A stretch of DNA of 60,839 nt from Thraustochytrium sp. TN22 (Eukaryota; Sar; Bigyra; Thraustochytrida; Thraustochytriidae). Location: NCBI GenBank assembly GCA_013306675.1, contig JABLUY010000004.1, positions 317,082-377,920 of the forward strand, written 5' to 3'. The notes beneath the pieces are model-generated. The model did no database searches. It was given only the letters and a program-made list of their open reading frames with translations, and had not been told where the DNA came from. The translations under genes were made by a program, and so were the position numbers. Below, piece by piece: positions 9,642 to 54,549 of the stretch. Position 1 is the first letter of the stretch; each line of letters begins with the position of its first letter.

Positions 9642-12173
9642 ATGGCGGCGGCGGCGGCGGGATGTGGCACTGGCGACGGCGGCATGGGCGGCGGCGGCGG
9701 GGCGAGGCCGCCGCAGCTCTTCGCCATGCTGTACGCGTCGCCGCTGACGCGGCGCGGGCAGGACGGCGGCTGCGAGGAGACCGTGGACGAGGTGGAAAGC
9801 CTGGACGTGCTGCGCGAGGCGGAGGAGCTGAAACACAGGCTGGAGGACCTGGGCCACGAGCTTCGCATACGCACAGAGGCCGCGACGCGCGAAAGCCTGC
9901 GCCGCATGCTGCAGTCCAAGACCGTGGAGGCGGCCGCCGAGGTGCTGCACTTTACGTGCCACGGGCTGCCGGACTCGCTGGCGCTTGAGGACGGCGCCGG
10001 CCGGCTCGACCCTCTGAGCGCCGCGGACCTCGAAGCCATGCTGGACCGCGACCGCATGCCGGACGTGGTCTTCGTGAGCGCGTGCTTCTCCGAAGCCATT
10101 GGCGAGATCTTCGTGCAGGCCGGCGTCAAGCACGTGGTGGCCGTGCGGCGCAACTTGCGCGTGGCCGATCGCGTCGGCAAGGACTTTGCCGGCTGCTTCC
10201 ACGAGGAGCTCCTCAAGGGCGAGACCGTGCAGGCGGCCTTTGACAAGGCGCTGCGCTATGTGCTGGACACGCCGTCCAAGGACCCCAGCTGGTACGAGCG
10301 GCAGCAGGGTAAGTTTTTGCTGCTCCCACTCCCACAGGAGGGCGTGGATCACGACGTGCCGGTCTTCGACAGCAACCGGCTCGGCGACGTCACGGACGAG
10401 ACGCCGCCGCCGGTCATTGACACGTGCCGCTTCATCTCGAGCAAGCTCCTGGGCCGCAAGGTCGTCATTCAGCGCATCGTGCAGGTGGTGGCGGCGCGCG
10501 ACGGCAGCGGTGGGCCGCGCTGGCTCACCGTCTGCGGTGCGGCCGGCATCGGCAAGACCACCTGCGCCATATCGGCCTGTACCTTTGCCAGCAAGCGCCG
10601 ACACTGCAAGGGCGTGTGCTATGTGCCGCTCTCGAGGACAGCCGGCGCCGCCGGCTTGCTCGGTGCTCACGGCGCGCGCGCCGGCTTGCTGGAGGCCTTT
10701 CGCACCAACGCGCCCGGCCGCACGCACCTTGGCGACGTGGACACGGAGATGGCGCTCTACGCGGAGCTCAACGCCATCTCGCGCGCGCACAGCGCCTACC
10801 CGGGTCGCCTCGTAGTGCTCCTGGACGGCTGCGAGCAGTTCGCCGGCGGCGGCTCGGCCTCGGCCGACCGCTGGGCCGCGCTGGAGGCCTTTGTGCGCGA
10901 CCTGCTGGCCAACTGCCCGGACGTCGCCGTGCTCTGTACAAGCCGGCGGCCGCTGTCCGCGCAGGCGGACGCGACGCGCGTCTGGGCCTCGGTCGCCGTG
11001 CCAGACGCCTACGAAGCAGGCCCGTTGCACCGCGAGCTCGTGCTCGAGGTCGGCGAGCTCGACCGCCGCCACGCTGCCGCCCTGCTCGTCCAGCTCAGCC
11101 CGCGGGACCTCACCGAGGCGGAGATCAACGACGGCGGCGCCGGGCCCGGTCATTTCGACAAGCTCAGCAGCCGCCAGTGCCTAGACATTCTGGCGCACCA
11201 CCGTGTCCTGCGCGCGTGCCGCGGGCACCCGCTAGTCATTGGCCAGATCGCCGAGAAGTTGGCCAACCAGCGGCTCAACGACCTCCTCAAGGATGCCAAT
11301 GAGCGCGCCACGGCCTTTTTCGGCGCCGACCAGAACGCCAACGCACACGCGCCGCATGGCACGAGCACGCTGTCCGCGGACCAGCTCGCGCGACCGCTGC
11401 CGCACTCCGCGGCGACACTGCCAGGGACGTCCACCTTCTCGGCGGCGCGCCTCAGCTCGCGCCGGCTTGTCGCGGCGGGCGGCGGGCTGCCGCGCGCCAT
11501 CCCGACGCTCAGCCCAGACAACGCATGGGCCGCCGCGCTCGTGCAGGACTGCCGCGCGCGGCTGGAGGCGCTGGGGCCGCGTTCTACGCCTGACGCGGAG
11601 TGGGCCGCTGTGCTCGAGAGCTCGCGGGGAGCCCTCAAGAGCGCTCTCTACGCCAACGCCAAGGTTCACCGCGAGCTCACACGCTCCGACCTGGACCGAC
11701 TGCGAATCGTCTACGACCGCTACCGCCCACCACCGGGCGCTTCTGCGGCGGGCTCTACCGACCGTCTCGCTGCATATGCTCGCTGGCTTCAGGCCATGGT
11801 CATCACCCTCCTCGACAACTACATGTACTGGAACAAGAGCGTCATTTATGGGCTCATCGCCAAAGAGACCGTCAACAGCATGCTGCTCTCCGGCGCGCAG
11901 GCGCCTGGCGGCTTCCTCGTCCGTATAAGCGAGTCCGCGCCGGGCAGCCTTGCCATCGCCTATGTGGTGCAGTCGTCCTCGGCGCCAGGCCTGCGCGTAG
12001 TGCACATTCTCGTCTCCACGCAGCCCGGCGGGGGCGTGGCGGTCGACGTCCGCTCTGGCACGAACCGCTATCCCAGCCTCGGCAACCTCTTGCTCGAGCA
12101 GGAAGGCTTCTCCACGCTCTGGCCGGACAAGCCTAAGCGTGACGTCTTGGTGCCACTTCTCAGCGCAAGGTAA
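9642..12173 (+). CDS. CHAT-domain / STAND NTPase / STAT-like SH2 fusion protein
   Basis: 843 residues from ATG 9642. The frame is open upstream to 9438 but only from GTG. Residues ~25-235 form a CHAT (caspase-like) domain with both catalytic motifs intact: HFTCHG (His107) and FVSACFS (Cys148). Residues ~280-560 form a P-loop STAND/NB-ARC-like NTPase: GAAGIGKTT (Lys305), LVVLLDG (Asp395) and VLCTSRR sensor. A linker and helical region precede a C-terminal SH2 domain (from Trp730): YGLIAKE, GGFLVRISES with the phosphotyrosine Arg at 761, GSLAIAYV and VVHILV. The SES..G..AIA pattern is closer to STAT-type SH2 than to Src-type. Inferred role: a nucleotide-switched protease-like sensor recruited to phosphotyrosine. 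It converges with AND-1 238 bp downstream. Confidence 0.85.
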   Translation: MAAAAAGCGTGDGGMGGGGGARPPQLFAMLYASPLTRRGQDGGCEETVDEVESLDVLREAEELKHRLEDLGHELRIRTEAATRESLRRMLQSKTVEAAAEVLHFTCHGLPDSLALEDGAGRLDPLSAADLEAMLDRDRMPDVVFVSACFSEAIGEIFVQAGVKHVVAVRRNLRVADRVGKDFAGCFHEELLKGETVQAAFDKALRYVLDTPSKDPSWYERQQGKFLLLPLPQEGVDHDVPVFDSNRLGDVTDETPPPVIDTCRFISSKLLGRKVVIQRIVQVVAARDGSGGPRWLTVCGAAGIGKTTCAISACTFASKRRHCKGVCYVPLSRTAGAAGLLGAHGARAGLLEAFRTNAPGRTHLGDVDTEMALYAELNAISRAHSAYPGRLVVLLDGCEQFAGGGSASADRWAALEAFVRDLLANCPDVAVLCTSRRPLSAQADATRVWASVAVPDAYEAGPLHRELVLEVGELDRRHAAALLVQLSPRDLTEAEINDGGAGPGHFDKLSSRQCLDILAHHRVLRACRGHPLVIGQIAEKLANQRLNDLLKDANERATAFFGADQNANAHAPHGTSTLSADQLARPLPHSAATLPGTSTFSAARLSSRRLVAAGGGLPRAIPTLSPDNAWAAALVQDCRARLEALGPRSTPDAEWAAVLESSRGALKSALYANAKVHRELTRSDLDRLRIVYDRYRPPPGASAAGSTDRLAAYARWLQAMVITLLDNYMYWNKSVIYGLIAKETVNSMLLSGAQAPGGFLVRISESAPGSLAIAYVVQSSSAPGLRVVHILVSTQPGGGVAVDVRSGTNRYPSLGNLLLEQEGFSTLWPDKPKRDVLVPLLSAR

Positions 12174-12411: not shown

Positions 12412-15400
12412 TCACAAGCGGCGGCGCTTGCTGGCGCTGCCCGGGTTGCTCGGGGGCGCCAAAGCCTCCTGCGTAAAGGTGGACTGGCGGTTGAGTTTGG
12501 GCGTGAGGACGGGTGCCTTCCGGAGCGCCGTCATCAGGGACTCGCCCTCGGCAGACGCGGACGTTTCGGCGGTCTTCTTGGAGTTCTTCTTGAGAGCGAA
12601 AGGGTTGCGTTTCTTGTTGGCGCGCTGGGGCGAGTCGGCGATGTCCTCGTCGATGAGGGCGGCTGGGCTAGCGCTCGGCGCCGAGGCGGCCTCGTCGGCA
12701 AGGCTGCTGGCCTCGCTGCGCACGTCATCGCTCTGCAGGTGCTCGTTCAGGGACAGCGAGCGAAGGGCCGAAGCGGGCGGGGCGGCGAGCCGCCTGCGGC
12801 CGCGGTTGACGGCCGCGGGGCGCCGCTGCGCCAGCGGCGGCAGCCGCTGGCTCTTGGGCATGCGGCGCACGCGGTCCTGCTCCTCGGTGGGCTCCACGAC
12901 AAAGCGGGCGTCCTCCTCGTCGTAGCCGTCGCTGCTCTCGCCGTCGTCACTCTCCTCGTCCTCGTCCTCGTCCTCTTCCTCCTCTGCGAGACGGAGCGCC
13001 TCGCGGGCGGCAATGAGACGCTCGATGCGATCCAGAAGCGTGGCGTCGGCGCCGGCGGCCTGCGCGCGCTGGTGCGCAATCTCCAGCGAACGCGGCAGGC
13101 GAAGACGCTTGACGATGCCAAAGGCGCGGGCAGTGAGGTTAAGTTTGACGGCCAAGATGAGGTGCTTGAGCCCGTGCGCGTCGAGCACCGCCTGCTCTTG
13201 CTGCAGCTTCTCGTCGCTGACACGCAGCGCCTCGGCGCTCGGGTCTTGCGCCGGGACCTGGTCCGCAACAAAGGCGAGCTGGCCGTGCATCAGCTGCGAG
13301 CGCACAGCGGCCTCCTCGAGTTTGAACTTGAGGCCGCCCGTGGCCAGCTTGAGGCCGGCCAGCGGCACGTGCAGCTCGTACGAGCTGAGCACCGGGCGCG
13401 GGTAGGTCTCAGGAAAGAGCGCGGCCTTGCCCTTGAGCAGGACAGCGTTGAGCTTGCCGCCCTGAACGCTGACGGGCCAGAGCGTGTCGTACTTGGAGCG
13501 CCGCAGGGCGCTGTCGTGAAGCACGGGGACCCAGCTCCAGTCGAGCGCACGACTCAGCACCAGGAGCGAGCCGCGCGCGTCCAGGAACGCCGGCATGAAG
13601 CCCATCGACCGGTCGCCCATGCCGAGCCAGCGCACCGGGCGCTCCTCGCCGTGCGGCACCGGCAGCAGGCCGCGGGCCGCGACACCCGCGATGCCGCCAC
13701 CGCGCTCGCCTTCGACGCCAACGTTGATGAGCAGATACTCGAGGTGGTGCGTGCCGTCAGCGCTCGGGGCGCTGGCGTGGTAGACGACCATGAGGAAGAC
13801 GCCGGCGCCCGTCATGGACAGCACGGGGCCCGGCAGCACGAGCGGCGCCTCCTGCAGACCACTTGGACGGTAGATGCGGAGCGTGCGCTGGTTTGTGGCC
13901 ACAGCGGCAAAGGACACGCCGGCGGCCACGGCGCGCACCTTCTCCCGCGCTGGGAGCTTGAGCGCCCAGTCTGCGTTGTGCGCCCACGAGTCAAAGGACT
14001 TGTAGAAGACCGTGGAGCTCGGGCCGTAGCGCGCCTCCATGCGCTCCTCCAACGTCGCGTCCTCCTTGCCGAGCAGCTTCGAGGGCGCGACGCCAGCCGC
14101 CTCGGCCTGCTCCGCGATCTCCATGTACCTGCGCAGCACGCCGTCCGACTCTTGGTGCGCGGTGATCTCCGCCTGGAGGTCATCTTCCGGCAGTTCCGGC
14201 TCCCAGTCCGTGTCGTCCTTGCGCGCCTTGGCGCTGGTGGCGTCGTCACCCGTGTCCGCCTCGGCGCCCAGCTCGCCCGGCGTCGCAAAGACGGCGCCTG
14301 AGTCGCCCAGTGCCGCCATCGTAAAGCCGTAGTGGTCCGTGAAGCGCACGCGGCGGTGGTTTACGGCGTTGGCAAAGTCGATCTCCACAGAGTTATGCGT
14401 GTCCTCGGTGCGTAGAACGATGCTACCAATCGAGTTCCAAGCCAGGAAGCGACGGTCCTCGTCCTCGGGCGTCGCGCCCGGCATGAGCACGGGCTGCCGC
14501 TGCGGCGGCGCCGGCACCGCCTTCTCGAGAGCGATGCGGATACGCTCATCCAGCTCGGAGCTCGACACGAGGCCGCCGCCGCCGTAGCCGCCGCCATTGC
14601 TGTGCGCATCCAGGGCGCGGCCGTCGCCGTCCTCGTCGTCGTCACCAATGTCCAGCTCGTCCGTCGGCCCCATGATGGAGTCGCCATCCGACTCGCTGTC
14701 GCCCACTTTGTCCACGTCCATCCTGATCTTCTTGGAGCTCTGCGACGCCTTGTCGTCGTTTTCCAGGTCCTTGCCCTCATCCTTGTCTTCGGTGCCTGCT
14801 GTGGCGGAGGTCGTTTCCGAGGGCTTTTGCATGAGGTCGCCGAAGCAGTCCACCGAACCGCGCGGGAAGAGGTCGGTGCACCAGACGACTGTGCCGTCCA
14901 TGAGGAGCGCGAGAAGGCCCCGGCGCCGGTCCGGCCAGACCAGATGCTGCACCGGTACCTTTTCCGGAACATCCAGTTCCCGCGTCATGACCGGCTCAAA
15001 GATTGTGTCGGAAAGCTTATCGCCGACGCGCGAGACGTGGACGACCTGGAGCAGGCTCCCCTCCGCGGCGCATGCGAGATATCGGCCGTTCGGCGACCAG
15101 GTCACCGCGCCCCCGGACGGCATGGGGAGCTTGATCGCACGGAGCTCCTTGAACTGACCGGCCTCGAGTGCGTAGATCACGAAGCGGTCAATACCGGTGA
15201 GTGCCAGAAAGGCGCAGTCAGGACTCCAGGCGACCTGTGTCGGCCGCGACATGGTGGCATCCTCGACGATGTCCGCCACGGCGACGCCCTTGAAACTGGC
15301 GGCCAGCTTGCTGTCCGCCGTCCACACCTTGAGCTCGCCGTCAGTCGCGACGGAAGCGAGGTAGTGGCCGTCGGGCCGCCACGCGAGCGACTTGACCGCG

Positions 15401-16581
15401 GCGCTGTGGCCGCTGAGCTCCTCCACTCGCGAGGACTCCTCCACGTTGACAAGGCGGACCGCGTGCTCGTCCGTGGCCACTGCCAGGACCTTGCCGTCCG
15501 GGCGAAAGGCCACGTCACGCACGGGCCCAGGCGCACGAAAGAGGAGCGACTTGAACTCCCCGCCGGGGAGCCGCAGGAGGCGCACCTGGCCGCCGTTCGT
15601 GCCGCACGCGAGCAGCGGCTCGGATGGGCTGACACTCGCACAGAGCGCGCCCTCCACGTCGGCTAGATCTCGGGCGACCTCACGCTTGTCGACATGGACC
15701 TGACGCACGCCGAGCTTACCGGCCGCAAATGCGACCTTGGGGTCGCGGGGATCGAGCGCGAGTGCGCCGCGGCCAGGAGGCAGGACCACACGCCCGACCG
15801 TGGGACTCTCTTTGTCGTGCTCGTAGCCCAGAGGAGGCGGTCCACTATTTTCGACAAGCTCCATGCCGTGATCGATGGTGCCTTCCATGTCCGCTTTGCT
15901 CTGGGTCATGTCCATCTTGCCGCCCGCGTGATCGTCCTTGCCCTGCTCCTCAGCCGCCGTGGAATCTTCTTCCGGCAGGTCCTCTTGGCTCTGAGACATC
16001 TCGAGCGACTCGGCAGCCAGCTCGCGCTCCAAGTCCTCCATGTCCTCCTCCTCCTCCTCGTTGTCCTCTTCGACTGCGCCAGCGGCCTGCTTGCGCGGCT
16101 TGATGTTGTCGTCAGAGGCGAGCGAGTCGTTGTCATCATCGTCCTGGAGCACCTTCTTGGAGCGCTGCGACGAAGGGACAACATCCTCCTTGTCCTTTTC
16201 TTCGGCTGAGTCCTGCGAGTTCTGCGAGTCCTGCGAGTCCTGCGAGTCTTGCGACGCTGCCACCTGCTGTGTCGGCTGCATGGAGCGGTCATCATCCTCG
16301 TCGTCCTCGTCCAGGTCCATGCCAGCCTCCTGCGATGCCTGCGCGAGCGAATCCGGAATGGGGCTCGGGTCAACGGCGCTCTGGTCCTCGGTGGCCGCCA
16401 GCGCGACTGCCGTCGCCTCCGGGTCCTGCACCTCCGTGGCCGTCAGCGCGTCCTTGCCGCTGTCGCCCGCTTCCGTGGCCTCGGCGCCGTCCTCGCCGGG
16501 CTTCTCCTGCTGCGTAGCCTCCAGCGCGTCCTGCGTCGCCACGGACCCCACCGAGCTTGCGTCGTCCTCCTCCATGGTCAT
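12412..16581 (-). CDS. WDHD1: AND-1/Ctf4 replisome adaptor (WDHD1-like)
   Basis: 1389 residues from the outermost ATG (MTMEEDD). Ctf4/AND-1 is a homotrimeric hub linking the CMG helicase to DNA polymerase alpha. The N-terminal ~250 residues are acidic and rich in SQ/TQ (SQDSQDSQDSQ), an addition relative to yeast and human and a plausible ATM/ATR target. A WD40 propeller follows (~260-560: SGHSAAVKSLAWRPDGHYLAS, TDGELKVWT, TQVAWSPDCAFLAL). After an acidic linker comes the SepB/Ctf4 beta-propeller and helical domain (~715-1090: RFLAWNSIGSIVLR, VRFTDHYGFTMAAL, AVAAGVSFAAVATNQRTLRI). No HMG box is seen; the tail carries a basic NPFALKKNSKK stretch and a terminal KRRRL nuclear signal. Single exon. 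The frame runs upstream to 16836 without a better ATG. Confidence 0.92.
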   Translation of the reverse strand: MTMEEDDASSVGSVATQDALEATQQEKPGEDGAEATEAGDSGKDALTATEVQDPEATAVALAATEDQSAVDPSPIPDSLAQASQEAGMDLDEDDEDDDRSMQPTQQVAASQDSQDSQDSQNSQDSAEEKDKEDVVPSSQRSKKVLQDDDDNDSLASDDNIKPRKQAAGAVEEDNEEEEEDMEDLERELAAESLEMSQSQEDLPEEDSTAAEEQGKDDHAGGKMDMTQSKADMEGTIDHGMELVENSGPPPLGYEHDKESPTVGRVVLPPGRGALALDPRDPKVAFAAGKLGVRQVHVDKREVARDLADVEGALCASVSPSEPLLACGTNGGQVRLLRLPGGEFKSLLFRAPGPVRDVAFRPDGKVLAVATDEHAVRLVNVEESSRVEELSGHSAAVKSLAWRPDGHYLASVATDGELKVWTADSKLAASFKGVAVADIVEDATMSRPTQVAWSPDCAFLALTGIDRFVIYALEAGQFKELRAIKLPMPSGGAVTWSPNGRYLACAAEGSLLQVVHVSRVGDKLSDTIFEPVMTRELDVPEKVPVQHLVWPDRRRGLLALLMDGTVVWCTDLFPRGSVDCFGDLMQKPSETTSATAGTEDKDEGKDLENDDKASQSSKKIRMDVDKVGDSESDGDSIMGPTDELDIGDDDEDGDGRALDAHSNGGGYGGGGLVSSSELDERIRIALEKAVPAPPQRQPVLMPGATPEDEDRRFLAWNSIGSIVLRTEDTHNSVEIDFANAVNHRRVRFTDHYGFTMAALGDSGAVFATPGELGAEADTGDDATSAKARKDDTDWEPELPEDDLQAEITAHQESDGVLRRYMEIAEQAEAAGVAPSKLLGKEDATLEERMEARYGPSSTVFYKSFDSWAHNADWALKLPAREKVRAVAAGVSFAAVATNQRTLRIYRPSGLQEAPLVLPGPVLSMTGAGVFLMVVYHASAPSADGTHHLEYLLINVGVEGERGGGIAGVAARGLLPVPHGEERPVRWLGMGDRSMGFMPAFLDARGSLLVLSRALDWSWVPVLHDSALRRSKYDTLWPVSVQGGKLNAVLLKGKAALFPETYPRPVLSSYELHVPLAGLKLATGGLKFKLEEAAVRSQLMHGQLAFVADQVPAQDPSAEALRVSDEKLQQEQAVLDAHGLKHLILAVKLNLTARAFGIVKRLRLPRSLEIAHQRAQAAGADATLLDRIERLIAAREALRLAEEEEDEDEDEESDDGESSDGYDEEDARFVVEPTEEQDRVRRMPKSQRLPPLAQRRPAAVNRGRRRLAAPPASALRSLSLNEHLQSDDVRSEASSLADEAASAPSASPAALIDEDIADSPQRANKKRNPFALKKNSKKTAETSASAEGESLMTALRKAPVLTPKLNRQSTFTQEALAPPSNPGSASKRRRL

Positions 16582-16993
16582 GGTCCTGCCTCCGCGAGGC
16601 GCCTGAGCGAGCGCCTGAGCGAGCGCGCGCGCGAAGCGCCAACGAGAGCGCGCGAGCGCGCGCCGCTCCTCCGCCGCCGCGGCCGCCGTCCGCTGCGCCG
16701 CGCCCTGCAGAGCGAGCGGGTTTGCTCGCGGCGCGTGGTTAGCCTCTCGCCCGGCCGTGCCGCCTGCAGGCAGTGCCGAGCCGCGGTTAGGCTCGCGACC
16801 CAACCGCCGCCATCGCACTGCGCGCCTAACCACCACCGCGGGTTGCGCAGACCGCGGCGCGGGAAGCTCAGGCCGCGCCGGGCGCCTGCCGCTGGCGCCG
16901 ACTCGGAGAAGAACGAACTGGACCCGGTCTGGGAGCGAGTCGGGACGCGCCCCTCCTTTTCATTAAAAGGTGCCCCGACCGGTGTTGCAGTAG
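16582..16993. promoter_or_regulatory. AND-1 upstream region
   Basis: 5' flank of the AND-1 gene up to the tandem array. GC-rich with gcgcgcgag clusters; no TATA box or other clear site and no gene seen. Confidence 0.35.
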
Positions 16994-26975: not shown

Positions 26976-29258
26976 ATGCTCACGGACATCGTGCAGAGTC
27001 TGGAGACGCGCGTGAGCGGCTGGGACGTCGCGGCGGTGCTTCTCGGGTGCCTGCCGCCGCTGCTGTTGCACAAGGTGGGCGTCACCTTCTTGCACCCCAG
27101 GCTCACGGCCCTGGCGAAGCGGCGGCCGCCGTGGTTCGTGGTGCTCCAAGAGGTGCTGGCCGTCATCACGCGCACGGCGCGAGTACACGAGCTGGTGCTC
27201 ATGGGTCTTCCACGCCGTGTGGATCGTCGCCTCGGGCTGGTGAGCCGGTTGCGCAAGCATCCCGTTTACGTGCAGGAGCAGCACCAGACGCGCATCGACG
27301 CGGGCTGGGCCTTCCTCACCCTGCTCGCCTTCATGTTCGCCTTCGCGTCGCCGGCACTGTACCGGCCGGACCCCACAGACCTCTTCGCCTACGCCAAGAG
27401 GACCATGGTGTTCTCGCTCTTCGGCCTGCTCCAGGCCGTGCTGACCCAAATCCAGGACGACTTCTCCATCTGGACCGCGTCCTGGCCCGACTTTGTGCGC
27501 GCGCTCTTCGTCGTTCACATCTTCGGCTCGCACGGCACGCGCGACGTGGAGAGCGCCGGTGTCTTCTTCACGGTCGCCATGTGCCGCCAGCTCTACATGG
27601 CGCTCTATTTTGAGAGCTACGCCGCCTTTGCCATCTACTCGGCCACCTTTTTGGCCGTGCCCATGGTGGCCAGCGAGTGGTTCTGGGAGCGCCAGGTCGG
27701 CTTCGTGCTGTCCATGCTGGCCATCTCGCTCGGCATGGTCTTGCCGGCCATGCAGGAGCGCGTGCTGCGCCACGAGGCCAAGGTCGAGGAGTTTGAGCGC
27801 GAGAAGACCTTCGAGGCCAACCTGACCGAACTCAGCCGCGTGCAGGCCTTGCACGAGGCCGAGCTGCGCTCGCGCCACGCAGAGTTCGTGCGCGCCATGG
27901 AGGCCAAGCATCGCGAGAGCACCGAAAAGCTCCACGCCGTGCTCTCCTACACGGCGCACGAGTACCGCAACCACTTCTTCCAGGCGCGAGGGGCGCTCGA
28001 CGACCTGCAGGCCATCGCACGTGCCGAGGGAACGCCCACCAGCGCCGCAGGCCCTGTCCTCGAGGCCGCCAAGACGCTCGGCCGCGCGCACTCCATGATT
28101 CAAAGCCTCTTTGACGACGTTCTGCAGGTGCACCGGCTCGAGATGGCCGCCGAGGTCGACTGGTGCGGCCCAGGCCGCCCCTTTCGAGTCGGGGCCGACC
28201 TTTTCGAACGCGCGCGCGACTTCGTGCGCGCCTCGCTACCACCACACAAGTCCAACGTTACCTTTGAGGCCATCTCGCATGGCAACCTCGACCTTGAGGT
28301 CATCGGCAACCCGGAGAAGTTGCTGCAGGTCGTCACCAACATCGTGTCCAACGCCATCAAGTTCACAGACGCAGGCTCCATTCGCCTCGAAGTTTCCTGT
28401 TTCCCGGCACATGACAAGGGCGCAAGAGCCGGCAACCATGGCAACCAGCACCAGCATCAGCAGCTCAAATGTGCCGAGGGCCACGTTGACCTCATCCTCG
28501 TCGTCAGCGACACGGGCTGTGGCATGGACGCCGACAAGGTCGCCAGCCTCTTTCAGCCCTTTGTGCAAGCGCGCAACGCCGACGAGTTCGGCTTTGGTGG
28601 CTCCGGCCTTGGCCTCTACTTTGCGCGCAACATCATGTGCGCTTATCCAGGCGGCTCGCTCGAGGTCGACTCGGAGCCCGGCAGCGGCACGACCTTTGTC
28701 GGCCGCGCGCGTCTGCCGTGCCACGTCGTCGCCGAGGAGCCCGCCGTGCCCGAGGTCGCCGAGATGCCCGCCTCGCTCGACCCGGAGCGCTCCCTCGAGA
28801 CAAACTCTTCCGACGTTACTCTTCTCGGCGAAGACGTCCTCATCGTCGACGACTCGCCCGTCAACCGTAAGCTGCTGCAGCGCATGCTCGCGCGCCGCGC
28901 AGCACCGTCCATCATGGTGCACGAGGCCACCAACGGTGAGGAGGCCGTCGACCGCGCGCGCAATCTCGGCGACCGCCTAGCCGTCATCCTCATGGACCGT
29001 CACATGCCTGTCATGGACGGCATAGAGGCCACGCGCCAGATTCGCCTGTTCAATTCCAATGTCCTCATCATTGCGGTCACCGGCAACACTGACGACGACA
29101 CGCACGCGCGCTTTGTCGACGCCGGCTGCGACTTTGTCTGGCACAAGGGCTCCGCCGTCAGCTCTCTCTTTGCCCTCATGAAGGTCGCGCGACATCCGCG
29201 AGCTCTCGCCACTGTGAGCCCTGCGCATCGACACGTCGTGCGCGAGGTCACGGTCTGA
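26976..29258 (+). CDS. membrane-anchored hybrid histidine kinase with receiver domain
   Basis: 760 residues from ATG 26976. The N-terminal ~260 residues contain about six hydrophobic segments (GWAFLTLLAFMFAFASPALY, FSLFGLLQAVLTQI, FAIYSATFLAVPMVA, FVLSMLAISLGMVLPAM), so the sensor is embedded in a membrane. A coiled segment (~265-325) leads to the dimerisation helix with phospho-acceptor His328 in TAHEYRNHFFQARG, a variant of the usual HELRxPL. The ATP domain has NIVSNAIKFTD (N box), DTGCGMD (G1), FQPF and GSGLGLYFAR (G2). The receiver (from ~617) has LIVDDSPVNR, the phospho-acceptor Asp674 in LMDRHMPVMDG, the conserved Thr in VTGNT and a Lys in WHKG where KP is usual. All catalytic residues seem present, so an active two-component phosphorelay is likely. 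The ligand is unknown. Confidence 0.92.
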   Translation: MLTDIVQSLETRVSGWDVAAVLLGCLPPLLLHKVGVTFLHPRLTALAKRRPPWFVVLQEVLAVITRTARVHELVLMGLPRRVDRRLGLVSRLRKHPVYVQEQHQTRIDAGWAFLTLLAFMFAFASPALYRPDPTDLFAYAKRTMVFSLFGLLQAVLTQIQDDFSIWTASWPDFVRALFVVHIFGSHGTRDVESAGVFFTVAMCRQLYMALYFESYAAFAIYSATFLAVPMVASEWFWERQVGFVLSMLAISLGMVLPAMQERVLRHEAKVEEFEREKTFEANLTELSRVQALHEAELRSRHAEFVRAMEAKHRESTEKLHAVLSYTAHEYRNHFFQARGALDDLQAIARAEGTPTSAAGPVLEAAKTLGRAHSMIQSLFDDVLQVHRLEMAAEVDWCGPGRPFRVGADLFERARDFVRASLPPHKSNVTFEAISHGNLDLEVIGNPEKLLQVVTNIVSNAIKFTDAGSIRLEVSCFPAHDKGARAGNHGNQHQHQQLKCAEGHVDLILVVSDTGCGMDADKVASLFQPFVQARNADEFGFGGSGLGLYFARNIMCAYPGGSLEVDSEPGSGTTFVGRARLPCHVVAEEPAVPEVAEMPASLDPERSLETNSSDVTLLGEDVLIVDDSPVNRKLLQRMLARRAAPSIMVHEATNGEEAVDRARNLGDRLAVILMDRHMPVMDGIEATRQIRLFNSNVLIIAVTGNTDDDTHARFVDAGCDFVWHKGSAVSSLFALMKVARHPRALATVSPAHRHVVREVTV

Positions 29259-31494: not shown

Positions 31495-31794
31495 TCCGCT
31501 CCGGGCGCTGCCCAAGGCCTCGACCTGATGGCTTTGCACAAGCCAGTCGCCGGTCCAGACGCTACCCGAGGCGCCGCCCGAGGCGCCGCCCAATCGGTTA
31601 GCACGTTCAAGCTTGCGTTTATTGACTGGCAGTGCCAAAAGCGAACCAAGTCGCGCATCAGACTTACTGTAGTGTCACTTGAAAAGATTGGCCACGCGCG
31701 CCGGCGCGGCGCGCATGAACGGCTCTGAGCGCTGTCCGAGTAGATGATCGAACGAGGCTGGCTGGCGCAGCAAGCAATCCGAGGTGGCGCGACC

Positions 31795-32955
31795 ATGGGC
31801 GGCGGCCTGAGCCGCGCCGGGGCGAGCGGCAGCACCAACACACCACACGATGGCAGGGCTTCGAGGATGACAATGGCAAGCTCAAGCTCAGACGCAAGGC
31901 CATCGCGTCGATTGAGCGCAGCAGGCCGTCTGCAATGGTTTCAGTCGCGCAAAACCGAGTACCTCAAGGCGAATGGCCCCGAAGCGCAAAAGCTTGCCGG
32001 GCCCATCGCGCAGCGGCTGGCCAAGATGATCTCCGAGTCAAGATCGCTGGCTCTTCGAGAGAATGAAGCAGAGCGGCTCACCAAGGACCAGCTGCGCAAG
32101 TTCTTCGACGAGCATGGCGTGCGCTTCGAGCCAGCGCTCTTCGAACGCATGTACCAGATGATCGAGGTGGACGACGAGGGCTTTGTCACCATCGCCAAGT
32201 TGGCCATGACTTTTGCGCTTCTCGTGCGGTCTGGTTCCGTCGCTCGTGATAATGTGGAACTGGCCTTCCGCCTCTTTGATTCGAATCAGGACGGTACCGT
32301 GGATCAGTACGAGTTCCAGGAGATGGTGCTCGCTCTTATTGGCAAGCACGTGGAACACTTGTACGAGATTGACGCAGGCGCCGCGTATTTCCGCGACTTT
32401 CTCGCGGCGGAGTTTGCGAGCGAGCTGATCCAGTTCCTGGACGCGGTGCGCGCAGAGCATGGCCGTCTGATCACAGATGATGCCCCGCTGGACGAGGCGG
32501 AGGCGCTCTTCGCCAGGTTTTTGGACATTGGCGCCGAGGATCAGGTGAACGTCTCTGACGACGTTCGCGAGTCCTGCCGTGCCGCTATTACGAATGCGCG
32601 CGAGGCCAACGCCACCTGCATCGGGAGCGCGGCTGCCTTTCGCGCTGCCAGGAGGGAAGCGCAGACTATGCTCGAGCAGGGCCCTCTGCTGCGCTTCAAG
32701 AATAAAGTGCGTGCCGACCCGAGCCACCCGCTTGCCAAAGCTGCGTGGGCAAACCTCGAGCTACAGCCTGACGACCAGATGACCATCGACCAGTTCCGCG
32801 CTTGGGCCGCCGCCAGCCCAACCATGTTCAACTTCCTTGACGACCTACAGCAGCTGCTGAAGATCCCGGACGCCGAGCTTGCGCGCACGCTGCGGCCCTC
32901 CGAGGTGCAGGCAGCAGCTCAAAACGAGGATGACGTGGCACCCCCCCAGATCTAA
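31795..32955 (+). CDS. EF-hand / RGS domain protein, predicted N-myristoylated
   Basis: 386 residues starting at ATG 31795. An in-frame ATG lies at 31744, but the second has a strong Kozak context (gaccATGGG) and begins MGGGLSRAG, a classic N-myristoylation signal (Gly2, Ser6). A first EF-hand-like unit (~110-140) lacks ligands. The second is canonical (loop 162-173, DSNQDGTVDQYEF). An RGS-like domain follows (~195-315: AYFRDFLAAEFASELIQFLDAV, EAEALFARFLDIGAEDQVNVS, RREAQTMLEQGPLLRFKN). RGS domains accelerate GTP hydrolysis by heterotrimeric G alpha subunits. Ca2+ control of a membrane-tethered RGS is the natural inference. A 7TM protein is encoded at 7.7 kb, but no direct link is shown. The RGS assignment rests on pattern, not on a search. 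Confidence 0.78.
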   Translation: MGGGLSRAGASGSTNTPHDGRASRMTMASSSSDARPSRRLSAAGRLQWFQSRKTEYLKANGPEAQKLAGPIAQRLAKMISESRSLALRENEAERLTKDQLRKFFDEHGVRFEPALFERMYQMIEVDDEGFVTIAKLAMTFALLVRSGSVARDNVELAFRLFDSNQDGTVDQYEFQEMVLALIGKHVEHLYEIDAGAAYFRDFLAAEFASELIQFLDAVRAEHGRLITDDAPLDEAEALFARFLDIGAEDQVNVSDDVRESCRAAITNAREANATCIGSAAAFRAARREAQTMLEQGPLLRFKNKVRADPSHPLAKAAWANLELQPDDQMTIDQFRAWAAASPTMFNFLDDLQQLLKIPDAELARTLRPSEVQAAAQNEDDVAPPQI

Positions 32956-46085: not shown

Positions 46086-47292
46086 CCCGAACGGACCACT
46101 TGATCCATACGCACCGCACCCGCTAGCCGTTCGAGCGAGCGCTCGTTCTTTCCCACGCGCACGAGTAGAACTTAGTAGTCTCTCTAGCTAGAGAGCTAGA
46201 GCTAGTAGCTAGAGAAGATCAAGGCGTCGCCCCGCTTGTCGCGGTGCGGCGGCCAATAGTAATTGCCGTAACGTTGTGGTGGACGTCGTGCTGGTGATGG
46301 TGGTATCGGTGCCGGGTACTGCTGCCATGTTGCAAGCGACTGTAACGCCCGCCCACCGCTCCACAAGCTTCCGGGGGAAAGTCTCCAGGCATCGAGATGC
46401 TCTGCCTCTACCACCACACCTACGAGCCAGTCAGCCAGGCGACCAGTCAATCTAACTTTTCGCACGACCGTTTGCGGCCGGACCTTTGACAGGCGCAGTC
46501 GTCGGCTGCCGCTGCTGAGCCTTGCTGCTCACACAACTGCTTTTTTTTAATTCTTGAGTTTGATGAATTGGTCGTCCCCGATTTGGTCCTTGCTTCCGTG
46601 CCAGCACAGTCCCTCTTGGTGGCCTCCTCGCCGCCCTCGGCATCCTCCTCGGCGTCCACCATTCACCCTAATAGTTAAAGGCGGCACCGGCCGGCCTCTC
46701 AATCCGGCGCTCCGGCGCACCGGATTCGCGGGCGAGCGGCGGGCAGCGCAGTCCCAGGCGCGGGGTCTCCGTCTGCGCGGCGGCGCGGCGCGGCACGCGC
46801 GAGCGAGGCGAGCGGGCGGAGCGGGCCAGGAGCGCCCGGCGCGACCGCGGACGCACCGTACGCCGTCTCAGGCCAGCAGCGGCGCTCCTGCGCGCGCGTG
46901 GCGGGGCAGCGCAGCGCGCGAGCTGTCATTTCGAATCCTACGCCGCGCCGCCCGCCGCTGCGCGCCGCGCGAGAAGGCCCCGGGCGCCAGCACGAGGCGC
47001 GTAGGCCGCGCAGGGCGCCAGTAGCCGTCGCGCGCGGCCTCTTGGTGCCCACGCAGCCTGCCGTGCGCCCGCGCGACGGACGCCCGCTGCTGCACCTCGA
47101 GGGCGCCGCCGCGCCCTGGCCGCAGAACAAGAATAAGCAGGAGACCAAGGCGGGCGTGGCGACGCCGGCCGGCCGGCCAGCCAGCGAGGCGAGCGCGGCG
47201 CGGGCGCACGCAGCGCGGGCGGGCGGGCGGGCGAGCGGGCGGCGGAGCGCGGCGCCCCCCCCCTCTCCTCTTTGTTTCGTTTGTTGATTCCC
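46086..47292. other. spacer between EF-hand and PHD genes
   Basis: No gene recognised. A CTAG-rich palindromic cluster (ctctctagctagagagctagagctag) lies at 46180-46212. GC content rises sharply after 46680 in the probable PHD-gene promoter. Confidence 0.45.
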
Positions 47293-50200
47293 ATGGGCGC
47301 CGACGGGGCCGCCGCGGCGGACGCCAGGCATGCCTCGGCGGCCACCGCCGCCAACGTCGTCGAGCTCTCCGACGACGACGACGCGAGCCGCCCGGCGAAC
47401 GGCGACAGATCGCCGGCTGCGGCCTCCGCCGCTGCCGCACGCGCACCGGCGAGCGCCGCGGCCGCCGCCGCGGCCGCCGCCGCGCACGACGACCCGCAGC
47501 CGCCGCCGCGCGCCACCGCGGCGAAGAAGGTGACGCCGACCGACGCCGGCCGCGCGCCAATCGCCGCGGGATCGTCAATCGCAGCGCGGAAGAAGAAGAA
47601 GAAGAAGAGGAACAAGAGCAAGAACAAGGGGGCGGCCGTCGCCGCCGCCGACGAAGACGGCGACGACGCGATGGCCAGTGCAGAGAATGGCCGCGTCGAC
47701 GGTAACGAGGACGGCGGCGAAGACGAGGACGGCGCCGATGACGACGAGGACGAGGATGGCGCCGATGGCGCCGCGAACGACGACGACGATGACGACCAGG
47801 AGGTTGACGGCGGCGACGGCGACGAGAACGACGACGACGACGACGACGACGACGACAACGACGACGACGCGAGACAGACGGATATTGCCGCCAGCGACGC
47901 CAAGCGCAAGAGGAACGGCGCCGGCACAACCGAAGAGGGTGCAGCCGTCGCTCCTGATGATGACGACGGCGTCGACGACGAGGAGGAGGAAGAGGAGGAA
48001 GAAGAAGACGAGGAGGATGACGGCCAAGACAGAGGTAACGACGACGACAACGAGGCCGAGCCGGCCGCTGCCGTCGCCACTGGTGCCGTCCCCGACGATG
48101 CCGACGCTGGGGGCGCTGTGCCAGCGGCCGCGGCCGCCGCGGCCGCTGCCGCCGCCGCGGACGATGATGACGATGATGACGACGACGACGAGGTCGTGCA
48201 GATTATCGTCCGCAAGCGGAGCGGGTCCAAGAGCAAGAAGACTGCTGATCGGCTCTCGGTGAACACGAACCAGCCGCCGCAGCTCGCGGACTCGAAGGCG
48301 TCGTCCGCCAAGAATAAAGGTGCCGCCGCCACGAAGCCGGGGAGCAGCGGCTCCGGCTCCGGCTCCGGCTCCGGCTCTGGGTCCGCGTCCAACTCGCGCA
48401 AGCGGCAGCGCAGCGAGGAGGGCGATTCGCTCCTGGACGGTGGCGAGGGCAAGCGATCGGCGCTGCGGCCGCGCCTCGGCGGTTCGCAGGTCAAGGCGAG
48501 CCCGATGCTGGGCGTGAGTCCGCGCGCCGGCTTTGGCTTGCACGAGGAGGACAACGACATGGAGGTGGACCGGCCCGGCGATAACTTCCCGGTGCGCCAC
48601 CCTCGCTACGACAACGACGCATATCAGGCGCCCTTGCCCACGTTGCGTGACCGCGCGGAGCTCACGGGCGAGACCGTGTCCAAGGCCGTCATGTTCGACG
48701 AGCTGCCGCTGCGCACCACCCAGCTCAGCGTCAACGAGAACGTGGTCTGGTGCGGTGAGGACCGCCTCGCGCTCCCTCGTGGCGTCATGGACGAGTACCT
48801 CTTCTTCTGTCGCTCGCTCACGCGTGAGAAGCCCATGGCCGGCTCTCACTTTGTGCGGCGCGTTCGCAAGCCCGTGGACGAGATCGCTGGCCGCAGCGGT
48901 CGTGGCAACGGCGGCGGCAGCGGCAAGCGCCGCCGGCCGCGGCAGCAGCAGGCGGGCGAGGCCAAGGATCCGTCGCAGGACGATGAGGACGAGGATGGCG
49001 ACGAGCATGACGAGGACGAGGACGGCGACGCCGGCGTCGAGATGACCCTGCGGCCGGCCGAGTCCGACGAGCAGGCGCTTCAGTTTCTGCACCGCTGTGA
49101 CTACGACGTGAACCGAGCCAAATTCCTCTTGCTGTCCGCGCACGGTGCTGGCATCGACCTGCAGTCCATCGAGCGCCGCGCGCGCATTTCGGGCGGCGAG
49201 AAGGTCCGCACGCCACGCCGCAGCGCGACGCCGCCGCAGCGGTCCTGGGACGCCGTCGCTGCCGAGGAGGGCGCCGGGGGCAAGATGCGCCGCGCCTCCT
49301 CGGCCGGCTCCGGCGCGAGCGGCGCGAGCGGCGCGAATAAGGGGCTCAAGAAGTGGACCTCCAGCGCGCGTGCCGCCCTCGTCGGCCGCGCGCCGTCCAT
49401 TCCATCGCGGCGCAAGCTGCACCAGCTCCTACAGGAGTTTCCTGCGGTGCGCGCCGACACCAACGACGCAAAGGCCATCGCTGGCGCCGGCGAGCTCGCC
49501 GCGCAGTTGGAGAAAAAACTCAAGACCGTGGACGAGTGGATCGCCAACGCGCACGACGCCGTTTCGCTCACCAAGCCGGACCTGCATTGGACGCTGGACG
49601 AGCTCAAGGAGCTCATTAGCACCGCGCCACAGGGCGTGCGCCTCGCCGAGGTCGCCTGCCTCCAGGCTGTGCATACGAGCTGCCTGAGCCTGCAAAGGGA
49701 TCTGGCCGCCGCGCTCCGGGACAGCGATGCCGCCAACGCCGCCCCCGGCGCTGAGGATTCGGCGCCGGCTTCGCAGCCGGCGCCCGCCGGCCCGCTGCCC
49801 TCGCTCAACCTGCTGCGGTCCATTTTGAGCCGTGCCGCGGCGCTGCCCCTGGACCTGCCAAAGCTTGACAAGGTGCAGGAGCTCGTGGCGCGCGCCGAGC
49901 GCGTCTCCGGCGAGATTCTCGACATGGTGCCCGCAAACCGTACCTGGCGCATCCAGCTCGTGACGCCGCCCAAGAACAAGCGCGCCGCCACGAAGCGCTG
50001 GGAGGCGCGCACCTTGCCGGAGCTGCGCGCCAAGCTGGTCGAGGCCGACAGCTGCCAGGTGAGCTTTCCGTCGCGGGACCTGCTGGCGTACTACGTCAAC
50101 GAGGCCGAGACCTGGCTTGCGCGCTGCGAGGACGCGTCCACGGGAGAGAACACGGACCTCAAGCGCCTTCTGGCCCTCGTCAAGGAGGCCGAGAAGATGC

Positions 50201-53200
50201 CCGTGGACCTTTCGGAGCACCGAGCACGAATCGATGAACAGCTGCGCCGCGCGCAGGAGTGCATCGCCAAGGTGCGCGACGCTGTGCCGCGCGGTGCCAA
50301 GAACACGCGCGGCGGCGTCGACGTGGAAAAGATGGAACTCGAGACCCTTCGCGCTCTCAAGGACGAGGCCGTCTCCATCGGCATCAAGCAGGACGACGTG
50401 GACGAGATGCAGCGCATCGTGGACGAGGCCGACAGCTGGAAGACGCGCGCCAAGGCGGCGCTTGAAGACGCAGACGCCGTGGACGCTGAGGTGCTAACCT
50501 CGCTCGTCTCCGAGGCCGACGCACTGCCGGTCATCATGCCGGAGACAGAGTTTCTCGAGGCCCAGGCCGAGAGCAAGGCGCTTTGCGACAAGATTCGCGC
50601 CACCATCGACACGCGCACGGCCTCGCTGCGCGACCTGACGCGCCTTCAGCTCAAGCTCACCAAGATGCGCAAGGTGCTGCAGGCGGGCGCCCAGCCCAAG
50701 AGCATTGATGCCGGCAAGTGCGAGAACCAGGTGCGCGTCCTGGTAAACCGCGCCGAGGACTGGATCCGCCGGGCGCACTTTCTGTGTCGCGTGGTACGCG
50801 ACGAGGATTTTGGCACGGAGGACAAGACCAAGCCCAAGAAGCGCAAGCGCAGCCACAAGAGGGCGGCCGCGCCCAAGGCCAAGCTTCAGGGCCCCTTTGC
50901 TGCGTACGAGCGCGTCACCTTCCGCCTCTTTGCCGAGTTCTACCACGAGGGCGCCGAGATGGGCGTCGACCTGAAGCTCCCGCTCCAGGACCTCGTGCAG
51001 CTGCGTCAGGAGCTCCAGGTCACCAAGGACCATCTGCGTGCCTTTGCGGCGCGCTGCGGTCTGCGCGGCGACCCCGAGGCGCTCTTCTCCGAGGGCGACG
51101 CTGAGACGCTCATCCCGACCAAGCTGGATCCATCTGAGGATGACATGGATGTCGACGAGGCTGCGGCGAAGCGCAGCAAGGCTGATGACGACGACGCTGC
51201 GGCAGCGGCGGTGGAAGACGACGAAGACGAGGATGACCAGGACCAGGACCAGGACCAGGACCAGGACCAGGACCAGCAGGACGAGGATCAGGATCAGGAC
51301 GAGGAGGCCTCGCCCGTCCCGTCGGCCGCCGAGGATGGCAAGGAGCAGCCAGCGGACCGCTCCGCTGGCGCTGTCCCTGGCACCACCGGGGATGAGAGTG
51401 TCAAGCCGTCGCTGACGGACATCAAAGCGCAGCTGGATGCCTGCTTCATGGTGAGCGTGGTGACGGCGGAGGAGCGCGTTTTGCGCGAGGGCTACGAAGC
51501 GGCGTGTCGGTGGGTGGCCCGTGCCCTGGCGCTGGTTCCGCAAAAGCGCGAGGCGTGGGAGGCCGCCGTGGCGCCGGCCGCTGTCGAGGCGGACGCGACG
51601 GACTCGTCCGTGGAGTCTATCGAAGAGCTCCTAGAGGCGACGCCCAGCCTGCTCGTGGACGTGAGCGACCTGGCGGACGCGCTCCGCGAAACGCTGAACA
51701 GGATCAAGTCGTGGACCTCGCGCGCGGACGCCGTGGTCAGGGCGTACGAGGCTCTCTTGCCGCAGGTGGCCACGACGTGGACAGCGCCCGAGGACGAGGA
51801 CGCGCTGGACGAGGGCGAGGCGAAGGCCGAGGGCGGCGCCTTGCAGCAGGACGAACTGGACGCCGTCAAGGTGGCGCTCGGCATGGATGCCACCTTGGGC
51901 CGTAGCAAGCGCGAGACGGTTAAAAAACGCGCCACGAACGGCGGCAGCGCGAACCGGCCGGGCAGCGTCGCGGCGGCTGCTGCGGCCCGCGCGCAGGAGG
52001 AGCTGGAGCGTGACACCAAGCTGGGGCTCGTGCCGCGCAAGGAGGAGGCAACGGAGTGGGCTGAGCTGGACGCCTCGTTGGAGAAGATCGTCAGAGAGCG
52101 CTTTGCATCCATCCCCAGGCCGACTCACGAGGTTGAGTGGGACATTCCGCTGGACGCCTTTCAGGTGGCGGGCGACATTGCGGCAGAGGACAGTGGTGCG
52201 AGCGATGAAGGTGCAGATGCGGATGAAGGTGCAGACGTGGACGAAGACGAAGACGCGGACGCAGACGCGGACGCGGACGCAGACGCAGACGCAGACGCAG
52301 ACATGGCAGGTTCCGAGGCCGAGGGCGAAGGCGAAGGCGAGGACAAGAAGCTGCCGGAGGTGAGCGCCGGCGAGAGCGGTGGCGCAGTGGCGCCCGAGCC
52401 GGTGGTGCTCTTCCCCGAGGCGCTCAAGTCGGTGCTGGCGGACGCGCGCGCGCTGCGCAAGGAGCTGGAGAGCGCCACGGTGATGGAGGTGGCGGACCGC
52501 GAGGTTAGCGTGCGCAAGGTGCGGTGGCTTGCCGAGGCAAGTGACTTTTTGGACCGGGTAAGCGAGGCGCTGAGCCCGACTTCGGCGGCCAGCATGGACG
52601 AGGTGCGCGGTCTGATCGAGGAGGGCCTGGAGCTGCAAAACTCGGAGGCGTCCTCGGCAGAGGACGGCGGCACTGGCAGTGCAACCTGCATCGCGGACAG
52701 CGTGGAGCACCGCGGCAAGGCGTACTCGGTGAGCGGGTGCGCGCGGCGCGCGACGCGGCGGCTGCAACGCGTGGGACGCAATGTGTCGGCGTGGAACCAG
52801 CTGGCGCAGCGGCGGCTGGCGCAAGCCAAGTCGGTCGCCGGGTACCTTACGGTGCGCGTGCTGTTGGAGATGAAACTAGAGCGCGGGCTGTACCCCCGGC
52901 CGCCAGCAGAGACGGAGGCGCGCGCGGAGCTGAGGAAGCTGACGCTTTGGCTGCGCGAGGCTCGGCTGCGGCTCACAAGCCGCGAGGACCTCCGCACGGC
53001 GGACGAGCTGGAGGCGCTGGCCGTGGAAGGCAGCAAGTTCAAGGTGACCTTTGGCGAGGCGCGCGAACTGCGGTCGGCCCTGCGGCGCGCACGGTCCTGG
53101 GTCGCGGAGCTCAAGCGCACCGGTATCGAGCGCGGCGAGGCAAGCTTGGCGCAACTCAAGCTGATGCTGGACGCGGCGCAGAGCATCCCGGTGGATCTGA

Positions 53201-54317
53201 GCGAGCACACGACGGTGCTGGAGCAGGCGACGCGCGTGTACTGCGTCTGCCGGCGTGGATTCACGGAGGAGATGCTGGAGTGCTCATACTGCGAAGAGTG
53301 GTTCCACATTGGGTGCGTGAACGTCTCCCCCACCCATGCGAAGCGATGCGCGCGGTACTGCTGCCCGCTTTGCGCCGGTAGCCGCACGGCGCGCGCTCTG
53401 CTGGGCTTGGCGCGTGCGGCCATCTCGCGCGTGCGCGTGTCATGGGCGGCGCGCGTGGCGCGCGATCCGGAAGCGGCGCTGCAACCGAGTTTGCTGCGCG
53501 ACTTCGCGAGCTGGGTCGAGGATGCTGCGCCGCTCGTGGACAAAATCGTGGCTGCAGGCGATGGCCCATACGACACGTCGCTCTTCAGGGAAGCCGAGAA
53601 GCTCACGCTGGACAGGCCGTTTCATGATGGGCCCATTCGAGGTGCCGACTTTGAACACATCCGGACCGCCCTGATCTTCCGCCTATGGTCGGGCGAGACG
53701 ATCCAGCGCCTGCGCGGTGTGCAGGTGAGCGACGAGACCTTTGCCTTGGTACGGAATGCTGCGACAAACGTACCGCAGGCCTGCTGGAGTGAGCTGTACA
53801 GGTTCGTGAACAGCGTCTTTCGGCGCACGATGTCGTGGCGCCAGCGCGCCAACAACGTGCTGTCGACGCCCGAGACCCGCCTTTCGCGCGAGGAGCTCAT
53901 CAAGGACCTTGAGGGCCTGCTTGCCACCGCGCGCACCTTCCCGACCACCATGCCGGAGGAGAAGCAGATCCAGTCCGTTCTGGAGGACGGCGCCCACCGC
54001 TACTGCCTCTGTCGCGGGCTCAACGACGGCTCTCTCATGGTGGGCTGCGAGTACTGCGATAAGTGGTACCACGTTCGTTGCTGCCAGATGCCAGAGGACG
54101 TGCCCATTGAGAAGCTTGACAGCTGGATGTGCCCTCCCTGCCACAAGGAGCGGGGCCTGATTTATCGCCCGGCGTACACGGTCCGCGAGTCCATGGAGGC
54201 CAAGGGCTTGACGTTCCATGGTGAGGGCGAGGGCGACGAGGAGAAGAGCGATGTGCAAGTTCGCAACGGTGACGTCTCCAAGGCGATCGCCGATGTTGCT
54301 GGCGAGGCTACGAAAAT

Positions 54318-54352
<35 letters not shown>

Positions 54353-54549
54353 AGAAGGAGGAGGAAGAGAACGAAGCGGAGGGGGGCAAGGGCGCCGCCC
54401 TGACCGCCGCCGCCGCTGCTGCTGGAGCCAAGACGCAAAGTGCCGTCGACGCAAACGAGTACGATGTCGCGGCTTCCGGGGCTCAGAAAAAGGAGACGTC
54501 AGGCGGAGCTGTCAAGGCCGCCTCCAGTTCAGCCGAGATGGCCCCGTAG
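47293..54549 (+). CDS. giant ELM2-like / PLU-1-like / double PHD-finger chromatin protein
   Basis: 2418 residues from ATG MGADGAAAAD (the frame extends 7 codons upstream from TTG). Residues 1-400: Ala-rich and extreme acidic tracts (long Asp runs) with a basic KKKKKKRNKSKNK block. About 425-612: ELM2-like region (YQAPLPTLRDRAEL, ending LHRCDYDVNRAKFLLL). About 700-1960: repeated helical units WIANAHDAVSL, ARAERVSGEIL, EAETWLARCEDA, RAEDWIRRAHFL and LRRARSWVAELKR, resembling the PLU-1-like region of KDM5 demethylases. PHD finger 1 starts at 1983 (YCVCRRG, CSYCEEWFHIGC) and PHD finger 2 at 2237 (YCLCRG, CEYCDKWYHVRCC), both with Cys4-His-Cys3 ligands. No JmjC, JmjN or ARID is present, so it is not a demethylase as encoded. 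Likely a nuclear histone-reading scaffold. It ends in poly-Gln/Glu/Ala. Confidence 0.85.

Follow-up and report, generated by a model that had tools for sequence, protein, structure and literature searches.

The gene at positions 9642-12173 (+) of the window, by which we mean the whole stretch of 60,839 nucleotides analyzed from Thraustochytrium sp. TN22, encodes in a single frame a protein of 843 aa in which a CHAT protease-like domain, a STAND-type NTPase, a disordered linker, a STAT-type linker and an SH2 domain follow one another. The fusion is real, conserved and, as far as our searches reach, undescribed, and represents the CHAT-STAND kind of protein with an unusual sensor. Judging from the sequence, we lean toward reading the product as a one-piece, NLR-like signaling protease of thraustochytrid-type protists, which would act as sensor and executioner in cell death or defense.

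Inspection of the frame placed the first in-frame ATG at 9642 and the stop codon at 12171-12173, with no internal stops between them. Comparison with Pfam yielded CHAT (PF12770) at aa 57-214 (E 5.4e-14, 52.8 bits vs. a cut-off of 24 bits), AAA_16 at aa 268-420 (E 8.8e-8, above the curated cut-off) and SH2 at aa 736-801 (E 2.2e-6, 28.1 bits vs. a cut-off of 21 bits); NB-ARC fell just below its own cut-off (22.6 vs. 23.5 bits). Consecutive stretches of the predicted structural model matched SAVED-CHAT, STAND/AAA+ NTPases, and the linker plus SH2 of a Dictyostelium STAT. An earlier note on this DNA had read CHAT, STAND NTPase and SH2 domains in that order in one open frame; this observation is confirmed for the 843-aa frame, with all three over their Pfam cut-offs, and the HMM search and structure prediction that the note had proposed as checks agree with it. 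A mini-intron lookalike (GTAAGT...ACAG, approximately 10309-10337) was rejected as an intron because the stretch encodes the conserved KFLLLP segment. The next gene, at 12412-16836 (-), encodes a Ctf4/WDHD1 homologue and does not overlap the 9642-12173 coding frame. Elsewhere in the window, a large frame at 47272-54549 (+) contains PLU-1 and PHD domains and likely encodes a chromatin protein, presumably of the KDM5 type; the frame at 26976-29258 (+), with histidine-kinase-type ATPase and response-regulator domains, is likely a hybrid two-component kinase, and an RGS domain occurs together with an EF-hand-like match in the frame at 31744-32955 (+).

The CHAT protease-like domain (Pfam PF12770) spans aa 21-248 (9702-10385, +). 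Its predicted catalytic pair consists of His107 (9960-9962, +) in the motif HFTCHG and Cys148 (10083-10085, +) in the motif VFVSAC. Conservation was assessed in an alignment of eight SH2-bearing proteins, made up of the window protein, its paralogue P0008 from the same genome and six proteins from databases. The histidine is present in seven of the eight (Thr in P0008) and the cysteine in all eight, in P0008 only past a four-residue insertion; the full pair is found in 7/7 proteins other than P0008. The intact His/Cys pair claimed earlier is thus present as well as conserved.

The STAND-type NTPase occupies aa 256-563 (approximate limits; 10407-11330, +). It contains the Walker A motif GAAGIGKT (aa 299-306; 10536-10559, +), with G299, G304 and K305 in 8/8 aligned proteins, and the Walker B motif VVLLD (10812-10826, +), with Asp395 likewise in 8/8, so that the P-loop NTPase with Walker A and B motifs proposed in the earlier note is upheld. 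A further GxP motif, CRGHPL (aa 526-531; 11217-11234, +), which we take to be GLPL-like, has G528 in 6 of the 7 proteins with letters at this position. In the predicted model the fold is a P-loop fold of the STAND/AAA+ type, for which CED-4, Apaf-1, plant NLRs and Cdc6/Orc were tied, a match that gives no separation of NB-ARC from Cdc6/Orc-type NTPases. An NB-ARC profile search of the whole genome (E<=0.01) did not have the window gene among its matches. No winged helix or MHD part was evident in the predicted model after the GxP motif, where aa 554-626 are of low confidence. R435 is present in 3 of the 7 proteins with letters there, and an arginine sensor is therefore not general.

The NTPase is followed by a variable linker of low confidence (aa about 564-621; 11331-11504, +; pLDDT <50 at 554-626), a STAT-type linker domain (aa about 622-735; 11505-11846, +), assigned by a model match and a profile match to STAT, and the SH2 domain, which extends from aa 736 to the C-terminus (11847-12170, +; Pfam SH2 736-801). 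The helical stretch upstream of SH2 was left unnamed in the earlier note; it matches the STAT linker, and because of this match the unit is to be regarded as linker-SH2. A linker plus SH2 profile made from the window protein and seven relatives matched STATA with E=3.5e-23, as compared with 3.8e-11 for the best Abl SH2. Arg761 in the motif FLVRISES (11922-11924, +) is the FLVR arginine, the residue predicted to contact phosphotyrosine. R761, S763, E764 and H788 are each present in 8/8 aligned proteins, as is a basic residue at 741, and S765 is present in 7/8; we take these to be the positions of the STAT phosphotyrosine pocket. The STAT-like SH2 domain with an FLVR arginine, as first described, is thereby supported by model, profile and alignment. 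Pfam STAT_linker was not listed for the window gene, its sole match in the genome being the P0008 gene, below the cut-off; PF02864 gave no match in the genome, nor did the control of that search.

Three protein searches, with about 8000 candidates scored in each, yielded the six database proteins that combine all three domains (P0002, P0003, P0005, P0006, P0011 and P0012), which answers the earlier proposal to look for the same architecture elsewhere. CHAT and SH2 were over the Pfam cut-off in all six, and an NTPase family in three of them (P0005, NB-ARC; P0011, AAA_16; P0012, NACHT), the NTPase match being below the cut-off in P0002, P0003 and P0006. P0004, P0007 and P0013 are CHAT-NTPase proteins that yielded no SH2 match. 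P0002 is an MMETSP transcript marked as a complete ORF, and P0003, P0005 and P0012 come from contigs of >140 kb; in the P0003 gene model the NTPase lacks its second half, and the P0005 sequence begins within CHAT. Identity among the window protein and its two nearest relatives amounts to 48-59% across the length of the proteins. The nearest named relative is that of Hondaea fermentalgiana (P0003), a thraustochytrid stramenopile, in line with the protist source assumed earlier. Its record name, 'Signal transducer and activator of transcription A' (STATA), misleads, as the protein is a CHAT-NTPase-SH2 protein. Found again in a paralogue and in all six of these proteins, the domain order is far beyond chance. 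The earlier statement that no protein with this order had been described holds for the literature searched, in which no paper was found, but not for the sequence databases, where the architecture was already present, unrecognized and in one case labeled STATA.

An SH2 search of the source genome (37.9 Mb, 453 contigs) gave six places in five frames (C28, the window gene, C434, C310 and C14). CHAT-NTPase fusions make up two of the five; these are the two SH2-bearing copies found. The second of them, C310 (L017:1942-4248, +), encodes P0008, again with CHAT, NTPase, STAT linker and SH2. When P0008 was aligned with profile A3, in which it was not included, it covered columns 57-795 (hhalign probability 99.8, E 1.5e-29); Pfam CHAT was not listed for it, and the relation rests on this profile alignment. 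Since HFTCHG of the window protein is HFVGTG in P0008 and the cysteine is displaced, the P0008 CHAT is probably dead and the protein a pseudo-protease partner. Given a paralogue without the catalytic histidine, some members of the family may only scaffold. Regarding the other SH2 frames, the C434 protein presumably is SPT6-like, C14 is a TPR protein with a borderline SH2 (over the cut-off in the genome search, below it in the whole-frame Pfam comparison), and C28 (L015:3400-6039, -) carries a tandem pair of SH2 domains and, in addition, has a Cbl-like SH2 match.

A CHAT search of the genome gave five places (C316, the window gene, C153, C44 and, below the cut-off, C87), among which C44 appears to us to be a separase. 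C316 (L019:3080-7078, -) comprises an EGF module, a hydrophobic, membrane-helix-like stretch, CHAT and an NB-ARC-like NTPase (over the cut-off in the genome-wide search, just below it in the whole-protein Pfam comparison) whose P-loop looks degenerate by eye (GAGRT); it is a candidate membrane-receptor form of CHAT-STAND. C153 (L020:2-9418, +), a frame of 3139 aa, contains SPRY (Pfam), LRR-like repeats (by eye) and a C-terminal CHAT-NTPase, the CHAT being over the cut-off in the genome search and absent from the Pfam matches of the frame taken whole. Another NB-ARC-like NTPase frame, C332 (L063; 1351 aa), showed no noticeable CHAT within the 1016 aa read. With regard to enzymes that write or erase phosphotyrosine, the genome contains six tyrosine-phosphatase matches, two of them strong. 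Among 30 loci examined out of 148 kinase matches, two (L030 and L042) resemble tyrosine kinases in their HRDIASRN/HRDIAARN and WMAPE/WAAPE motifs, by a motif rule that we assume to apply; the pattern used found no motif in 8 of the 30. No gasdermin (PF04598) was found in the genome, which is weak evidence of absence because the single match in the 14 control genomes fell short of the cut-off; the cleavage substrate could be something other than gasdermin.

Genomes of bacteria and archaea, scanned once, returned 145 pattern matches with a single relative among them, an EAD7-CHAT-NACHT/STAND-TPR protein from an Anaerolineae MAG (L023). It aligned with the window protein at 31% identity (128/415 columns, E 2e-40) and with P0012 at 37% identity over 322 columns, and scored 309 bits with the profile of SH2-bearing modules. 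The alignment with the window protein is collinear across CHAT, inter-domain segment and NTPase, which supports the view that CHAT-NTPase would be one inherited, bacterial-type unit, with a different C-terminal part in the protists. Bacterial relatives are rare: at E<=1e-15 they occurred in 3 of 301 genomes of the same phylum, the MAG itself included. Contamination of the MAG is a minor possibility, the frames adjoining L023 looking bacterial by eye. One scan of viral_contigs found 84 stretches with the pattern and no relative among them. A tree was computed for 24 CHAT-NTPase modules, P0013 being split in two and P0015 removed as a CHAT-only match, which left 24 rows; P0020-P0024, P0026 and P0027, all hits of the third protein search, and the CHAT frames C44 and C87 were kept outside. 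The window protein, P0002, P0003, P0005 and P0011 formed a clade (99/99), P0008 appeared as a long branch joined to the bacterial rows, and a single origin of all 8 SH2 fusions was neither rejected nor shown (p-AU 0.466). The deeper branching order is without resolution, so that the tree places neither L023 as donor nor the number of transfers.

The explanation toward which we lean draws on the architecture, the conserved fusion, the catalytic, P-loop and phosphotyrosine-pocket residues, and the homology of CHAT-NTPase to a bacterial protein. The protein would be a CHAT-STAND module of the bacterial conflict-system type, in which the STAT linker-SH2 sits where the bacterial relative has TPR. 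Its SH2 domain would bind phosphotyrosine on a receptor, kinase or adaptor that has been activated, which would concentrate the protein, with phosphotyrosine binding as the clustering cue; the STAND NTPase would then be released, loaded with NTP and oligomerize, and the clustered CHAT domains would turn active and cut a substrate, with regulated death or defense as the outcome. Activation by clustering would fit the SAVED-CHAT protease, whose structure entry (8tl0) is titled as that of an activated filament. All steps of this mechanism (phosphotyrosine binding, NTP switching, oligomerization and proteolysis) are predicted from sequence features, as are the biological role and the direction of transfer, and the phosphotyrosine-gated, nucleotide-switched protease of the earlier note, a putative cell-death or defense sensor, is to be read in the same way. 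The strong tyrosine-phosphatase matches and the two tyrosine-kinase-like loci of the genome speak for this explanation, as does the gasdermin-activating CHAT protease known from a fungus. Against it stand the weakly controlled lack of gasdermin matches, the missing winged helix/MHD part, the patchy conservation of R435, a fold match that ties NB-ARC with Cdc6/Orc, the absence of the gene from the genome-wide NB-ARC and STAT_linker matches, and the loss of the catalytic histidine in P0008. Tentatively, and with clearly less confidence, the protein might be seen as a bacterial conflict module captured by a eukaryote and rewired to tyrosine-kinase signaling, a single chain acting as both caspase and phosphotyrosine-sensing inflammasome, into which the STAT linker-SH2 was swapped as sensor; the CHAT-dead SH2 paralogue might then join mixed oligomers as a regulatory subunit or a decoy, and the EGF/membrane and SPRY CHAT-NTPase proteins might form a wider protist receptor set.

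It is rather unlikely, if worth considering, that the protein is a regulatory protease outside immunity, recruited by its SH2 domain to growth or developmental tyrosine-kinase complexes for a separase-like single cut (e.g., in a life-cycle switch or zoospore formation). The presence of only two SH2-bearing copies among those found in the genome, the degree of identity to the two nearest relatives, unlike that of a large, fast-evolving sensor set, and the weakly controlled absence of PF04598 matches speak in its favor, but the likeness of the CHAT-NTPase portion to the fungal CHAT-NLRs and to a bacterial EAD7-STAND protein speaks against it. We consider it improbable that the family is mainly a scaffold, in which the CHAT fold serves assembly and signaling proceeds via SH2 and NTPase without proteolysis; the conservation of both catalytic residues in every other aligned SH2-bearing protein argues against this, even if P0008 retains NTPase, linker and SH2 and has lost the CHAT histidine.

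The two remaining readings have little weight. The name of the Hondaea record implies a transcription factor, a divergent STAT, and this would account for the STAT-type linker and SH2, but it is highly improbable: CHAT and NTPase occupy the part before the linker, where the STAT coiled coil and DNA-binding domain are absent, the last tyrosine of the window protein (Y810) lies within SH2, and no tail tyrosine after SH2 is common to the eight aligned proteins, as reciprocal dimers of the STAT type would involve. Membership in the STATs was rejected on these grounds. Least credible of all is the joining of two genes through a gene-model or assembly error, which the earlier note had named as a possible refutation. 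The gene is known in this genome from its open reading frame alone, but that frame is without a stop, the paralogue has the same order, and so do the six database proteins, including the complete MMETSP transcript and the three on long contigs; a fusion artefact was therefore rejected and the fusion is regarded as genuine.

If the NLR-like signaling protease is the true reading, it would connect eukaryotic phosphotyrosine reading with the caspase-like, NTP-switched conflict proteins known from bacteria and fungi, two kinds of signaling normally kept apart. It would also suggest that unicellular stramenopiles have receptor-proteases of their own and illustrate how a module of bacterial type could be connected to a new input; phosphotyrosine control of a CHAT protease becomes testable.

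No description of CHAT with SH2 (with or without STAND), or of a thraustochytrid SH2 domain, was found in a literature search that covered few subscription papers, and wider searches led to papers on fungal, bacterial and general immunity; CHAT, SH2 and phosphotyrosine do not appear in the text of PMC7159879, and 'SH2 domain' occurs in PMC8195603 once only, inside a reference title. A caspase-related CHAT protease is the N-terminal effector of fungal NLR-like proteins, contracted pyroptotic-like receptors (PMC10197012, PMC9815663, PMC12881547), and a TPR-bearing CHAT protease of anserina activates a gasdermin (PMC12881547). The fungal CHAT-NLRs have, like the window protein, an N-terminal CHAT effector in an NLR-type receptor; the fungal protease receptors carry WD40, TPR or ANK repeats, whereas the window protein carries linker-SH2, and they often have a gasdermin neighbor, whereas none was found, under a weak control, in the thraustochytrid genome. 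Bacterial L023 is collinear with the window protein in CHAT, inter-domain segment and NTPase, but has an N-terminal EAD7 and a C-terminal TPR instead of linker-SH2; EAD7 is among the domains proposed for effector recruitment in bacterial conflict systems (PMC7159879). The STATs (Dictyostelium STATa, STAT5, STAT6) have linker and SH2 in common with the window protein, and differ in the coiled coil and DNA-binding domain that stand in place of CHAT and NTPase and in the tail tyrosine, which the group of the window protein does not share. With CED-4, Apaf-1 and plant NLRs the NTPase fold is common, as it is with Cdc6/Orc; the window protein differs in having a protease effector in the same chain and no WD40 or LRR sensor seen by Pfam. 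In SAVED-CHAT the sensor is SAVED, and we know of no STAND NTPase or SH2 domain in it. The CHAT fold is common to SAVED-CHAT (8tl0) and the window protein. Of the features by which NLRs are recognized, the C-terminal repeat sensor is absent, with linker-SH2 in its place, and the N-terminal effector and central STAND NTPase are present; by analogy, the window protein would work like an NLR, and we do not file it as one.
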